Shown here: positions 44,624 through 49,657 of the stretch, in pieces
Layout of the letters: each line of letters starts with the position of its first letter
How positions within the stretch are numbered: position 1 is the first letter of the stretch
DNA from: Flavobacteriaceae bacterium
Lineage (GTDB): Bacteria; Bacteroidota; Bacteroidia; Flavobacteriales; Flavobacteriaceae
NCBI GenBank assembly: GCA_002702895.1
Contig: PACX01000024.1
Coordinates: forward strand, 1 to 53,636
DNA length: 53,636 bases
Direction of reading: 5' to 3'
Position numbers and translations under genes: made by a program
Notes under the pieces: generated by a model
Told to the model about the DNA's origin: nothing
What the model saw: the letters and a program-made list of their open reading frames with translations, nothing else
Databases searched by the model: none

Positions 44624-45526
44624 TTATTGTTTTGTCCTAGGATGAAATTTCATCACAGAATCAATTAGATGCTTCTTATTTACATGTAAATATCTTTCAG
44701 TTGTTGTTATACTTTCATGTCCCATCATTTTTTGAATTGTTATCAGATCAGCTCCATTTTCTATTAAATGAGTTGCAAAAGAGTGTCTTAATGTATGTGG
44801 ACCTATTTTTTTCTTAATATTTGATGCTTTCTTTAGTTTTTTTAAAATTAAAAAAATCATAACCCTTGATAAAATAGTTCCTCTTTCATTTAAAAAAAGA
44901 GTATCTTCAAAACCTTTTTTAATTTTTTGATTTGACCTTGAATCTAGCATATAATTATTTATATATATTTGAGATTGCTTACTAATTGGTACAAATCTCT
45001 CTTTATTTCCTTTTCCTGTTACTTTTATTAAAGATTCCTTAAAATACAAATCAGAAATTTTTAAATTAATTAATTCAGAAACTCTAAGTCCACAACTATA
45101 TAATAGTTCTACAATTGCAATATTTCTTAACCCAGTTTTAGATGTAAATTCAACACAGGCTATAATTTTATCAATTTCTTCAATTGTTAGAGTACTTGGG
45201 AGGTTATATCCTAATTTAGGTGATTCTATATTATCCATTGGGTTATTCTGAATCAAATTTTCTAATAATAAATAATCAAAGAAACGTCTAATTCCTGAAA
45301 TTATTCTTGCTTGAGTAGGTGGTTTAACCTTTTTTGAAATATTATATACAAATTCTTTTGTAATTTTTGATGATATCTCATTAGGATCTTTTTTAATCTT
45401 ATTATTTTTTAAAAAAAGAATAAATTTTTTTATATCAAACAGGTAACTTTCTACTGTATTTATTGATAAATTTCTTTCAATCTTTAAATAATTTTTAAAA
45501 TTATTAATTGCTATGTCCCAATTCAT
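44624..45526 (-). CDS. xerD: site-specific tyrosine recombinase XerC/XerD
   Basis: 300 residues, complete catalytic set: Arg148 (CGLRVSE), Lys172 (GKGNKERFVP), His244 and Arg247 (HTLRHSFAT), His270 (MMGHESI) and Tyr279 (TERYLHV). The N-terminal SAM-like domain is YLKIERNLSINTVESYLFDIKKF. It resolves chromosome dimers at dif. No attachment sites or mobile-element genes are nearby, so it is the housekeeping enzyme and not an integrase. C and D forms are not distinguishable by eye. Confidence 0.88.
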   Translation of the reverse strand: MNWDIAINNFKNYLKIERNLSINTVESYLFDIKKFILFLKNNKIKKDPNEISSKITKEFVYNISKKVKPPTQARIISGIRRFFDYLLLENLIQNNPMDNIESPKLGYNLPSTLTIEEIDKIIACVEFTSKTGLRNIAIVELLYSCGLRVSELINLKISDLYFKESLIKVTGKGNKERFVPISKQSQIYINNYMLDSRSNQKIKKGFEDTLFLNERGTILSRVMIFLILKKLKKASNIKKKIGPHTLRHSFATHLIENGADLITIQKMMGHESITTTERYLHVNKKHLIDSVMKFHPRTKQ

Positions 45527-45575: not shown

Positions 45576-46004
45576 ATGAAATTACAAATTATTAATGGTC
45601 CCAATTTAAATTTGTTAGGAACAAGAGAAAAAGATATATACGGAGGCCAGAATTTTGAAGTTTACTTAAAAAAATTAAAATCAAAATTTAAAAATGTTGA
45701 TCTAAATTATTTTCAATCTAATATTGAGGGGGAATTAATTGATAAAATTCATGATGTTGGATTTGATTTTGATGGAATAATTATAAATGCAGCTGCTTAT
45801 ACTCATACATCTGTTGGATTAGGTGATGCAATAAGGTCAATACCAATTCCAGTTATAGAAGTTCACATTTCAAATACATATTCAAGAGAAGAATTTCGAC
45901 ATAAATCATTTTTAAGTGCTCATGTAAAGGGAATAGTTATGGGTTTTGGATTAATGAGTTATGATTTAGCTATCTCAAGCTTTACAGAAACTATAAGTGA
46001 ATAA
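45576..46004 (+). CDS. aroQ: 3-dehydroquinate dehydratase, type II
   Basis: 142 residues, typical for the small dodecameric type II enzyme. NGPNLNLLGTREKDIYGG carries the catalytic Arg and Tyr; ANYTHTS-type IINAAAYTHTSVGLGDAI and EVHISNTYSREEFRHKSFLS follow, with His-Ile-Ser-Asn binding the substrate. It dehydrates 3-dehydroquinate to 3-dehydroshikimate in the shikimate pathway, together with AroK. It converges on lpdA with a 14-bp overlap. Confidence 0.95.
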   Translation: MKLQIINGPNLNLLGTREKDIYGGQNFEVYLKKLKSKFKNVDLNYFQSNIEGELIDKIHDVGFDFDGIIINAAAYTHTSVGLGDAIRSIPIPVIEVHISNTYSREEFRHKSFLSAHVKGIVMGFGLMSYDLAISSFTETISE

Positions 46005-47385
46005 CTTCATCATATGCATCTGCAACAGCTTCCATTATAGCTTCACTCATAGTAGGATGTGGATGTATAGCTTTGAGTACTTCATGTCCAGTTGTCTCTA
46101 ACTTTCTGCCTAAAACTACTTCAGCAATCATATCCGTAACCCCTTCACCAATCATATGACATCCCAGCCATTCTCCATATTTAGAATCAAAAATAACTTT
46201 TACAAAACCTTCACTTTTTCCTGATGCTTGAGCTTTGCCAGATGCACTAAAAGGAAATTTACCTACCTTAATATCATAACCCTTTTTTATAGCTTGATCT
46301 TCGGTTAGACCAACTGATGCAATTTCTGGTGAACAATAAGTACATCCTGGAACATTATTGTAGTCTATTGGAGAAACGTCCATGTTAGCAATTTTTTCAA
46401 CACAAAGAATTCCTTCTGCAGAAGCTACGTGAGCTAAAGCTTGTCCTTTAACAACATCACCAATTGCATAATATCCTTTCATATTAGTTCTGTAATATTC
46501 ATCAACTAATATTTTATCATTGTTTAATTCAATACCAATATCCTCTAATCCAATATTTTCAATATTGGATTTGATTCCAACTGCACTTAAAACAATTTCA
46601 GAATTAATTTTGGTTTTTTCTCCTTTAGATGATTCAAAATATACTTCTACACCATTGTTAGTTATTTTTGTTTCTTTTAACTCTGAAGAGGTAAAAATAT
46701 TAATTCCTTTTTTCTTCAAAATTTTCTCTAGCTCTTTTGAAATTTCTTTATCTTCAACGGGAACTATTCTATCTAAATATTCAATTATAGTAACGTTGGA
46801 ACCCATTGAATTATAAAAAAAGGCAAATTCAATTCCAATTGCACCAGATCCAACTATAATAATATCCTTAGGTTGCCTATTTAATGACATAGCTTCCCTA
46901 TATCCAATAATGTTCGTGCCATCTTGTTTTAGGCTAGGTATTTCTTTTGACCTTGCACCAGTAGAAATTATTATTCTTTCAGAAAAAATAATTGTTTCTT
47001 TTTTAGATTTATCAATGATTGTAACAGTATGATCATTGGTTAATTTACCAAAGCCATTAAAAACTTTAATTTTATTTTTTTTTAATAAAAATGTCACACC
47101 TTTACTCATTGAATCGGCAACTTTTCTACTTCTTTTAACAACCGCATTAAAATCTTTATTAATTTCATTAACACTTATTCCATAATCTTTGGCATTTTTT
47201 AAATAATCAAAAACTTGTGCAGATTTTAATAAAGCTTTAGTAGGAATACATCCCCAATTTAAACAAACCCCTCCCAAGCTTTCTTTTTCAATTATAGCAG
47301 TCTTTAAACCAAGTTGAGAAGCTCTAATAGCAGTAACATAACCACCTGGTCCACTACCTAAAACTATCAAATCAAATTTTTCCAT
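45991..47385 (-). CDS. lpdA: dihydrolipoyl dehydrogenase
   Basis: 464 residues. FAD site LGSGPGGYVTAIRASQLGL; redox disulfide Cys41 and Cys46 in GGVCLNWGCIPTK; NAD site IIIVGSGAIGIEFAFFYNSMG; C-terminal HPHPTMSEAI with the catalytic His. It re-oxidises lipoyl groups of the 2-oxoacid dehydrogenase complexes or glycine cleavage. Unlike the usual placement beside E1 and E2 genes, it follows two MsrB-family genes on the same strand with a 5-bp gap. Confidence 0.95.
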   Translation of the reverse strand: MEKFDLIVLGSGPGGYVTAIRASQLGLKTAIIEKESLGGVCLNWGCIPTKALLKSAQVFDYLKNAKDYGISVNEINKDFNAVVKRSRKVADSMSKGVTFLLKKNKIKVFNGFGKLTNDHTVTIIDKSKKETIIFSERIIISTGARSKEIPSLKQDGTNIIGYREAMSLNRQPKDIIIVGSGAIGIEFAFFYNSMGSNVTIIEYLDRIVPVEDKEISKELEKILKKKGINIFTSSELKETKITNNGVEVYFESSKGEKTKINSEIVLSAVGIKSNIENIGLEDIGIELNNDKILVDEYYRTNMKGYYAIGDVVKGQALAHVASAEGILCVEKIANMDVSPIDYNNVPGCTYCSPEIASVGLTEDQAIKKGYDIKVGKFPFSASGKAQASGKSEGFVKVIFDSKYGEWLGCHMIGEGVTDMIAEVVLGRKLETTGHEVLKAIHPHPTMSEAIMEAVADAYDEVIHL

Positions 47386-47390
47386 ATTTA

Positions 47391-47849
47391 TTATTGTTTT
47401 TTAAATGATAACGCAGCTGAATTAATACAATATCTTTTTCCAGTTGTTTCTTTAGGACCATCATTAAATACATGACCAAGATGACCGTCACATTTAGAAC
47501 ATTTGACTTCAATTCTTTTCATATTATATGAAAGGTCTTCAACATAAACAATTGTTGAAGGTATTGCCTTATCAAAGCTTGGCCATCCACAATTACTTTC
47601 ATATTTATTTGTACTTGAAAATAGAGTTTGATCGCAACCCTTACAGTTGTAATTTCCATTTTTGAAATGCAAATTATACTCACCTGTAAATGGTCTTTCA
47701 GTATAAGATTTTCTTAAAACTTTATAACTAAGATTGTCTAGATCATTTTTCCATTCTAAATCTGACTTTTGAATTTGTTTTTTTTCCTGAGAGAAATTAT
47801 AATTTGTCATAATGATACTTATTACAATAATAATATAAATATTTTTCAT
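47391..47849 (-). CDS. msrB: peptide-methionine (R)-S-oxide reductase MsrB, exported
   Basis: 152 residues with a signal peptide (YIIIVISIIMTNYNFSQ). Zinc ligands Cys69/Cys72 and Cys117/Cys120; active-site His123 and His126 (DGHLGHVF); catalytic Cys141 in KRYCINS; GWPSF at 88-92 with Cys87 in place for the resolving thiol. It repairs methionine R-sulfoxide in envelope proteins. It is coupled to the upstream paralogue by a TAATG overlap. Confidence 0.94.
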   Translation of the reverse strand: MKNIYIIIVISIIMTNYNFSQEKKQIQKSDLEWKNDLDNLSYKVLRKSYTERPFTGEYNLHFKNGNYNCKGCDQTLFSSTNKYESNCGWPSFDKAIPSTIVYVEDLSYNMKRIEVKCSKCDGHLGHVFNDGPKETTGKRYCINSAALSFKKQ

Positions 47850-48253
47850 TAATTTATTTTTAGAGTTTTAAAAATCAATGCATTTTTAGTGACACAGTGC
47901 CGATTTCCAGTTGATTTAGGTCCATCATCCCATACATTACCCAACTGTGCTCCACATTTTTTACATTCTAACTTTGTTTTGTTTATAAAATTTTTTTTGT
48001 ACTTAACCTTGTTGTCAATAGACTTATCAAAACTTTCATCATCATAATCTGATTTATACTTATTTTCTGACTTATATAGAGGAGAATTACATTTTTTACA
48101 ATAATAAACACCTTTTATATTTTTATCATTTTCTGTAATTAAATCTTTTAATTCCGAATTATTTATAGTTTGATCCATAGATTTTTTTTGTTTAAAATCA
48201 GTACAGCTTTTTAAAAAGTAGACTAATAAAATAATTAAACAAAACTTTTTCAT
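47849..48253 (-). CDS. degenerate MsrB paralogue lipoprotein, probable pseudoenzyme
   Basis: 134 residues with a lipoprotein signal (LIILLVYFLKSC, lipobox Cys17). It keeps the four zinc Cys (52, 55, 97, 100) and the catalytic-position Cys120, but the active-site His pair is Gln103 and Asn106 (GAQLGNVW against DGHLGHVF), the Asn after the catalytic Cys is Thr122, and GWPSF is replaced by DDESF. MsrB catalysis is therefore not expected; a zinc-binding or scaffold role, or another thiol chemistry, is possible. First gene of msrB-like-msrB-lpdA. Confidence 0.85.
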   Translation of the reverse strand: MKKFCLIILLVYFLKSCTDFKQKKSMDQTINNSELKDLITENDKNIKGVYYCKKCNSPLYKSENKYKSDYDDESFDKSIDNKVKYKKNFINKTKLECKKCGAQLGNVWDDGPKSTGNRHCVTKNALIFKTLKIN

Positions 48254-48349: not shown

Positions 48350-49657
48350 ATGCCAAAAATTTTATCTAAAAAGGGAGATTCTAAGGTTCTAAATGCATGG
48401 GCTTTTTATGACTGGGCTAATTCTGTTTATCCTCTTGTTATTTCTTCTTCTGTTTTTCCAATTTATTATGGAGCTTTGTTTATAGATAGCTTGTATATTG
48501 AAGTATTTGGATTTAATTTTAAAAATACTGCATTAATTAGTTTTTTAACAGCATTTGCATTTTTATTTCTTTCCATAATTACTCCTTTACTCTCTGGAAT
48601 TGCAGATTATATGGGGAATAAAAAAACTTTCCTTAAGTTTTTTTGTTATTTAGGTTCTTTTTCTTGTATAGGATTATATTGGTTTGATTTAGAAAATATT
48701 CATATTGGTTTACTTTTTTATTTTTTAGCTCTAATTTCCTTTTGGGCTAGTTTAGTTTTTTATAACTCATATTTACCTGACATTGCTTATAAAGAACAAC
48801 AAGATTACATTAGTGCTAAAGGATATGCAATGGGTTATATAGGTAGTGTTATTCTTTTAATCTTTAATTTGTGTATGGTTTTATATCCAAATTCATTTGG
48901 TATTTATGGTGATGGTGCTGAGCTTACAGCAATGAAATATTCTTTTGTTTCAGTTGGAATTTGGTGGATTGTTTGTAGCCAATATACTTTTTATCATCTT
49001 CCAAATTTTATAGAAAAAAGAAAAATTATTAATGATGTAATTTTTAATGGTTTTAAAGAACTTAAAGAAGTTTGGAATGAACTCAAAGAAATTATAATTA
49101 TTAAGAAATTTTTAATTGCATTTTTCATATACAGCTCTGCACTTCAGACTGTTTTACTTATTGCAACATATTTTGGTGAACAAGAAATTATTTGGCCTGA
49201 AGGCGAAAAAACTATAGGTTTAATTGTCAGTATACTTTTGATTCAATTGATTGCTATTTTTGGAGCAATGTTTACAGCAAAGCTTTCTGAAAAGTTAGGT
49301 AACATTTATACATTGTTAATCTTAAATTTATTTTGGGCAATTTTGTGTGTAGGAGCATATTTTATTACTAAACCATTAGAGTTTTATATTGCAGCTGGAT
49401 TAGTTGGTCTTGTAATGGGAGGAATACAAGCATTGTCACGTTCTACTTTTTCTAAAATGATTCCAGAAACCTACAATACAACGTCTTATTTTAGTTTCTA
49501 TGACGTAACGCAAAAAGTAAGTATTGTTATTGGAATGACTTTGTTTGCATTTGTTGATCAAATTACAGGAAGCATGAGAAGTTCGATTTTAGTTTTCTTA
49601 TTTATATTTCTTATTGGAGCTTTTCTTTTAAATAAAATTAAAATTAAGAATGTTTAA
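48350..49657 (+). CDS. MFS transporter, UMF1/Atg22-like family
   Basis: 435 residues, about 12 transmembrane segments. The opening LNAWAFYDWANSVYPLVISSSVFPIYY is the hallmark of the UMF1 family (related to yeast vacuolar Atg22). VMGGIQALSRSTFSKMIP is the conserved late-half motif. The N-terminus is cytoplasmic and basic. Substrate unknown; family members are often called amino-acid effluxers but evidence in bacteria is lacking. It is monocistronic by spacing, with lon 103 bp downstream. Confidence 0.87.
   Translation: MPKILSKKGDSKVLNAWAFYDWANSVYPLVISSSVFPIYYGALFIDSLYIEVFGFNFKNTALISFLTAFAFLFLSIITPLLSGIADYMGNKKTFLKFFCYLGSFSCIGLYWFDLENIHIGLLFYFLALISFWASLVFYNSYLPDIAYKEQQDYISAKGYAMGYIGSVILLIFNLCMVLYPNSFGIYGDGAELTAMKYSFVSVGIWWIVCSQYTFYHLPNFIEKRKIINDVIFNGFKELKEVWNELKEIIIIKKFLIAFFIYSSALQTVLLIATYFGEQEIIWPEGEKTIGLIVSILLIQLIAIFGAMFTAKLSEKLGNIYTLLILNLFWAILCVGAYFITKPLEFYIAAGLVGLVMGGIQALSRSTFSKMIPETYNTTSYFSFYDVTQKVSIVIGMTLFAFVDQITGSMRSSILVFLFIFLIGAFLLNKIKIKNV

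Follow-up and report, generated by a model that had tools for sequence, protein, structure and literature searches.

A selectively maintained, degenerate MsrB-like putative lipoprotein encoded beside intact msrB in a genus of Flavobacteriaceae

Introduction

MsrB, also named SelR, is the peptide-methionine (R)-S-oxide reductase, EC 1.8.4.12. The CULT and yippee/Mis18 domains are related beta-tents, which bind ligands or peptides without redox chemistry. PMC4287342 describes an occurrence of MsrB in all cellular life and gives R97, H111 and F113 as the specificity-setting cradle positions of the X. campestris enzyme. As set out in an excerpt of PMC6210582, MsrB depends for its activity on a catalytic Cys, a Trp for the methyl group of the substrate and an imidazolium acid, which is His103 in the N. 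meningitidis enzyme; by our own assignment, His103 is the second His of HLGH and this Trp is that of GWPS. According to a part of PMC3680461, MsrBs of the 1-Cys type can take reduction directly from thioredoxin. Etrx1 and Etrx2 are lipoprotein redox partners of the pneumococcal SpMsrAB2, both with a thioredoxin fold and two Cys (PMC3914529, in part). In the open-access literature, nothing was found on a pseudoenzyme or lipoprotein MsrB-like protein of the type described here.

Such a protein is encoded in the window, i.e., the whole stretch of 53,636 nucleotides of Flavobacteriaceae DNA (contig PACX01000024.1) that we analyzed. Here one MsrB copy is without acid catalyst and substrate pocket and is still subject to purifying selection, and its neighbor has moved to another compartment; this is a natural experiment in repair-enzyme change. 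A lineage of this kind would show whether the thiol of MsrB works usefully without methionine-sulfoxide chemistry.

Table 1. Features of the msrB region, in window coordinates. Residue counts refer to the degenerate copies of the same genus.
Feature	Position	Strand	Remarks
Dihydrolipoyl dehydrogenase-like gene, directly downstream of msrB	45991..47385	-	Named from translation; same neighbor in G065, G139, G169 and G055
Intact msrB, 152 aa	47391..47849	-	Export-type N-terminus; resolving Cys present; 1-nt overlap with the degenerate gene (TAATG, one base common to the stop codon of the latter and the msrB start)
Degenerate SelR/MsrB gene, putative lipoprotein, 134 aa	47849..48253	-	ORF with ATG start; Pfam SelR 74.7 bits; NCBIfam MsrB equivalog below cut-off
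RHCVTKN tail with catalytic-position C120	47882..47902	-	R118, C120 and N124 in 20/20; K123 in 19/20; H119 in 19/20 (Tyr in G155); synonymous codons vary
QLGNVW in place of HLGHVF	47930..47947	-	N106 at the general-acid His; Asn in 20/20, two by alignment only
Second zinc CxxC (C97, C100)	47954..47965	-	C97 in 20/20; C100 in 19/20 (Tyr in G155)
DDESF in place of the substrate-pocket GWPSF loop	48029..48043	-	Trp lost in 17/17; loop deleted in G155 and G163
First zinc CxxC (C52, C55)	48089..48100	-	Both in 19/19 readable copies
Lipobox-type Cys17 codon	48203..48205	-	Predicted lipid attachment, motif-based; Cys in 19/19 readable copies; TGT and TGC used
Divergent MFS-type transporter gene	48350..49657	+	Syntenic marker; adjoins the MsrB genes in G065, G169 and G055; same region in G139

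Results

A SelR-domain protein without the active site of MsrB

The product of the degenerate gene begins with a hydrophobic stretch that ends in a lipobox-like FLKSC; a charged linker then leads to a SelR domain, which starts near residue 43. It passes the Pfam SelR model PF01641 with 74.7 bits (E 7.7e-21; cut-off 24.9), while the intact neighbor at 47391-47849(-) reaches 165.5 bits. The NCBIfam equivalog for MsrB, TIGR00357, is failed by the degenerate protein (70.5 bits, cut-off 113.05) and passed by the neighbor (173.5 bits). Annotators should be warned that calls at the Pfam level would score this gene as a second MsrB.

The first-pass annotation of the window had proposed an MsrB pseudoenzyme that keeps the zinc site and the thiol, and all the changes it named are present in the sequence of 47849-48253(-). 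HLGHVF is changed to QLGNVW at residues 103-108, GWPSF to DDESF at residues 71-75 and RYCINS to RHCVTK at residues 118-123, with the zinc ligands C52, C55, C97 and C100 and the catalytic-position C120 all retained. Both active-site His are gone, the general acid being replaced by Asn, and so are the Trp of the substrate pocket and the Asn of the active site. The resolving Cys is missing as well (Y70). With the acid and the Trp absent, normal MsrB chemistry seems unlikely for this protein. The contrast drawn earlier between a lipoprotein and a signal-bearing active copy agrees with motif and hydrophobicity: C17 lies in FLKSC, and the intact MsrB of the window has a hydrophobic N-terminus without a lipobox Cys. 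Hydrophobicity and lipobox motif thus predict that the degenerate protein is a bacterial lipoprotein. The same two features, a hydrophobic N-terminus and then a lipobox Cys, were found in all 15 degenerate copies scanned.

Genes around the pair and the Msr complement of the genome

Between positions 44624 and 52205, the window carries xerD-like, aroQ-like and lpd-like genes, the msrB pair, the MFS transporter gene and a lon-like gene (names from translations). This order is wholly or partly retained in the other genera read. Five bases separate msrB from the dihydrolipoyl dehydrogenase-like gene. A promoter scan gave 25 sites vs. 20.3 expected, an uninformative excess.

In the genome of the window (1.87 Mb, 93.9% complete), the only two SelR matches are this pair, and there are two MsrA matches, one of them exported-looking. 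As the SelR pair consists of one degenerate and one export-type protein, the cytosol of the organism seems to lack MsrB and to be served by an MsrA (L171). Two DsbD-type transmembrane matches and three thioredoxin-like matches were found above cut-off.

The degenerate copy is present throughout the genus

We found SelR matches in 20 of 22 same-genus genomes, the other two being 64% and 78% complete, and each of the 20 has a degenerate copy. Eighteen of these ORFs are complete; that of G154 is split over two contigs and that of G161 is cut by a contig end. None of the 20 contains an internal stop or a frameshift. The degenerate copy is located directly upstream of intact msrB, on one contig, in 19 genomes, and G149 has the two on different contigs. 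The genes of the linked pairs overlap by 1-14 nt in 18 of 19 cases and are separated by 3 nt in the remaining one.

Three size classes could be distinguished: a long one of 12 genomes (including the two cut copies; complete ones 132-137 aa), a reduced one of six (117-127 aa) and a minimal one of two (G155 and G163, 86 aa). The minimal form had no match in NCBIfam and was recognized by its position and tail, and its residue positions rest on alignment. It has the substrate-loop half deleted and keeps the lipobox anchor, CxxC and an R-(H/Y)-C-I-D-K-N tail. At the two minimal loci (L049, 1052-1312; L050, 1953-2213), a block of about 30 residues between the zinc CxxC pairs is apparently lost.

The loss of both active-site His holds for the window's protein and only in part for the genus. 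At the second position the change to Asn is universal (20/20), whereas the first is variable (K in eight copies, His in three, Q, I, N and T in two each, E in one). The pocket Trp is replaced by D, N or S in all 17 copies having the loop, D110 is present in 16 of 20, and a single copy of the 20 still has Asn behind the Cys. In the intact in-genus copies (20/20), both His, Trp, Arg, Cys, Asn and Asp are all present. Residual, weak MsrB activity from a remodeled active site, for which the common fold, the Cys, the three copies with the first His and the one with the Asn could be quoted, is very improbable given that the general-acid His (so named for N. meningitidis MsrB in an excerpt of PMC6210582) is Asn in every copy, the Trp is absent wherever its loop exists and two copies lack this loop. 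For the same reasons (the Trp and the loop), a role in binding methionine oxide, one of those suggested in the first-pass annotation, is disfavored. Of the other roles suggested there, that of a thiol partner or sensor may apply.

A profile search with the degenerate family over 299 genomes of 236 genera gave out-of-genus scores of at most 100.1 bits, against 184 for long in-genus forms; since a reduced in-genus copy scores 94, the score alone leaves room for reduced copies in other genera. In a named genome collection, the ten best of 80 loci (465 confirmed in all) came from nine genomes and belong to the degenerate family, and the next ones are no more than 42% identical, with ordinary MsrB motifs in those aligned. 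Viral contigs yielded 20 stretches that matched a pattern, none of them a relative. When 395 genomes of the order were scanned with a DNA pattern for the tail, the sole match was the window, whose genome was also the only one of the genus in this sample. By these searches, the degenerate lipoprotein appears to be a variant of the SelR family confined, as far as we looked, to one genus. The named carriers are MAGs or single-cell genomes of marine origin and include AG-319-A09, MED-G65 and BACL29 MAG-121220-bin8 isolate FRAM18_bin219, and the genus is probably MAG-121220-bin8 of the marine Flavobacteriaceae. An excerpt of PMC6794258 presents MAG-121220-bin8 as a genus-level Flavobacteriaceae clade that is abundant ahead of spring blooms and has genomes of less than 2 Mb.

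Purifying selection acts on the protein

For ten long degenerate copies (129 codons), a codon model gave an omega of 0.076 (lnL -2651.7). Fixing omega at 1 (with a kappa of 2) lowered lnL to -2844.1, i.e., omega = 1 is rejected by about 192 log-likelihood units. Five reduced copies gave lnL -1349.4 with omega free and -1421.9 at omega 1 (about 72 units), the best grid value lying between 0.05 and 0.1. For msrB of the same ten genomes omega was 0.028. In pairwise comparisons (Nei-Gojobori, 10 genome pairs), the degenerate gene had a dN/dS of 0.10-0.45, compared with 0.05-0.14 in msrB, and exceeded msrB in every pair, which indicates weaker constraint; the absolute values are rough, as synonymous sites are partly saturated. 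Bootstrap pN/pS intervals stayed below 1 in six of eight pairs, and those of G168/G158 and of the minimal pair G155/G163 reach above 1. At the invariant residues the synonymous codons vary (CGG, CGA, AGA and AGG for R118; TGT and TGC for C120 and C17), indicating that the target of selection is the protein and not the DNA.

The degenerate gene is real, conserved and selected, and shows neither the stops and frameshifts nor the omega near 1 of a pseudogene. The earlier proposal of a pseudoenzyme under selection, with orthologs adjoining msrB, is therefore well supported: linkage is kept in 19 of 20 genomes, the specific substitutions are maintained and omega is far below 1. Decay through random substitutions or stop codons, which the first-pass annotation had set against it, is not what the genus displays. 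A slow decay, or a leader cistron kept for msrB translation with a functionless product, is improbable and already disfavored, although the stepwise shortening (from 132-137 through 117-127 to 86 aa), the faster evolution of the protein relative to msrB, the gene overlap and the empty lipoprotein slot in genus g55 (G055) would fit it. Opposed to it are the rejection of omega = 1 in both the long and the reduced class, 20 copies without an internal stop or frameshift, and the conservation of the lipobox Cys, of R118 and of C120 despite differing synonymous codons.

Predicted structure and the substrate cradle

The degenerate protein was modeled with AlphaFold2 from 26 aligned sequences, nine of them degenerate copies and 17 intact MsrBs, and the latter may favor the MsrB fold. 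The mean pLDDT was 74.6, with block means of 73-98 over residues 51-130 and a disordered linker. In a Foldseek search with this model, MsrBs ranked first (6q9v_A, E 5.7e-07), and VIA-align resulted in a tie between human MsrB1 (3mao, Z 12.9) and Mis18 yippee domains (Z 12.4). The model thus predicts a beta-tent fold, with two beta-meanders and an apical zinc.

In our own alignment, R97, H111 and F113 of the X. campestris enzyme correspond to K92, N106 and W108. These cradle positions are uniformly re-set in the genus: K92 in 18 of 18 copies, N106 in 20 of 20, and at position 108 either W (12 of 20) or Ile (the remaining eight). Such a pattern, together with the equal fit of the model to MsrB and Mis18 yippee, is what one would expect if the old substrate cradle had been re-specified to bind another small ligand or a peptide without redox chemistry. 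We nevertheless regard a binder of this sort, the strongest competitor of the thiol-partner reading discussed below, as unlikely. There is no aromatic cage of the CULT/yippee type, as the long forms offer W108 as the only aromatic and the reduced forms have lost it; the constant Cys would be left unexplained, and much of the cradle is missing from the 86-aa forms.

Origin from a tandem MsrB pair

The region was read completely in three further genera (G065, G139 and G169). In each, an intact lipoprotein MsrB is followed by a signal-less MsrB and then by the dehydrogenase gene, and the MFS gene flanks the opposite end. Among 23 out-of-genus paired loci, the upstream copies are lipobox-like in 22 and have RHC in 22, and the position of the resolving Cys is Ser or Thr in 21; the downstream copies have the resolving Cys in 23 of 23 and a lipobox in none. 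The key counts were repeated with types set by gene position and not by CGWPS. Judged by these sequences, the absence of the resolving Cys in the degenerate protein is mostly ancestral, and RHC in place of RYC likewise. A hydrophobic N-terminus on the downstream MsrB was found in 20 of 20 in-genus copies vs. one of 23 out-of-genus copies, where it precedes the first Met. Since all 67 distinct out-of-genus SelR ORFs read keep both His, Trp, Arg, Cys, Asn and Asp, as do the 20 intact in-genus copies, chance does not explain the active-site losses.

This arrangement elsewhere suggests two events in the genus, in either order: a retargeting of the downstream enzyme and a loss of catalysis by the upstream lipoprotein. 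The intact neighbor is probably not the parent of the degenerate copy. Position, lipobox, RHC and the missing resolving Cys indicate that the latter is probably a degenerate form of the 1-Cys lipoprotein MsrB which is intact in the same slot elsewhere. In a quick tree the degenerate copies fell among the upstream lipoprotein copies (support 97), but when they were constrained to group with the intact copies of the genus, the log-likelihood rose by 13.59 (p-AU 0.704); the two conflict and the protein tree leaves the parentage undecided. Region-wise log-odds without the linker favored the upstream type in nine of ten long copies (+0.4 for that of the window; negative for G150) and were negative for all five reduced copies, and with the linker they were negative for three of ten long copies, including the window's; types were set by the presence of CGWPS, except for two hand-moved rows, so this score is partly circular. 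As the tree is undecided and the score mixed, the parentage rests mainly on synteny.

Two further observations concern the tandem arrangement. G055 is a case of the lipoprotein simply being lost: its slot is empty and the downstream-type MsrB has a signal-like N-terminus. Its locus (L178), from another small-genome genus, has a single MsrB relocated in parallel without a surviving pseudoenzyme. The intact in-genus MsrB (47391-47849 in the window) is mostly like the downstream, cytosolic type, but in all 20 copies its tail after DGP leans toward the type of the upstream lipoprotein; this could reflect gene conversion between the tandem copies.

Discussion

By synteny and motifs, a maintained, non-canonical SelR-domain protein, predicted to be a lipoprotein, fills in this genus the slot of an intact MsrB lipoprotein (mostly without a resolving Cys) of other genera of the family. 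Being kept in good order beside a working MsrB with its repair parts lost, it probably serves another function now, one based on its thiol. All copies retain the anchor, the tail and the thiol together with its Arg, even those in which the substrate loop is deleted, which favors a membrane-tethered thiol partner. Our best guess, a tentative one, is a lipid-anchored single-Cys thiol partner of the exported MsrB, for which the Etrx lipoproteins and SpMsrAB2 offer a precedent (PMC3914529). The exported two-Cys MsrB would have taken over periplasmic methionine-R-sulfoxide repair, after which the lipoprotein would have ceased to reduce the substrate and kept its thiol chemistry. Anchored in the membrane and co-produced with MsrB from overlapping genes, it may offer C120, within R118-H119-C120, as the partner thiol. 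A DsbD-type transporter might pass electrons to it by way of a thioredoxin-like protein of the periplasm, and the genome has candidates for both; alternatively, a transient mixed disulfide could tether or gauge oxidized MsrB. The direction of electron flow and the physical contact with MsrB are guesses. The gene overlap is probably ancestral, the same arrangement existing in G169, and is thus weak evidence for a physical partnership. Against a partner role, C120 could be a structural relic, and the exported MsrB has a resolving Cys of its own and should not need an external one.

The thiol could instead serve an oxidoreductase that is independent of MsrB and acts on a substrate other than methionine sulfoxide, e.g., protein sulfenic acids. 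The thiol and Arg retained in 20 of 20 copies, the mostly 1-Cys ancestry and the direct reduction of 1-Cys MsrBs by thioredoxin, as described in a part of PMC3680461, would suit such an enzyme, but the acid catalyst is absent at its known place and no genomic link to another substrate was seen, which makes it quite unlikely. The partner role in its most specific version would define a new class of Msr accessory protein, namely a lipid-anchored, zinc-stabilized beta-tent without methionine-sulfoxide chemistry that acts in trans with its exported MsrB neighbor through one conserved Cys, with one subclade discarding the substrate half and keeping the thiol half. In this full form we consider the proposal doubtful.

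Among known systems, the degenerate protein is comparable to MsrB/SelR (TIGR00357) in fold, the four zinc Cys, the catalytic-position Cys and the Arg, but it is without the general-acid His, the pocket Trp and the resolving Cys, and reaches 70.5 bits vs. 113. With the upstream lipoprotein MsrB of the tandem pairs of the Flavobacteriaceae type it has in common the slot, lipobox, zinc site, RHC and lack of a resolving Cys (21/23); yet none of those read has lost GWPS, either His or the Asn, all of which are altered in the window's protein. CULT (cereblon) and yippee/Mis18 resemble it in their beta-tent fold and in substitutions at the same cradle positions, whereas it has no aromatic cage, keeps the MsrB Cys and is much closer to MsrB in sequence. 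Etrx1 and Etrx2 are, like the degenerate protein as we propose it, lipid-anchored and partnered with an extracytoplasmic Msr; unlike these proteins of the thioredoxin fold, it is a predicted beta-tent with one free Cys.
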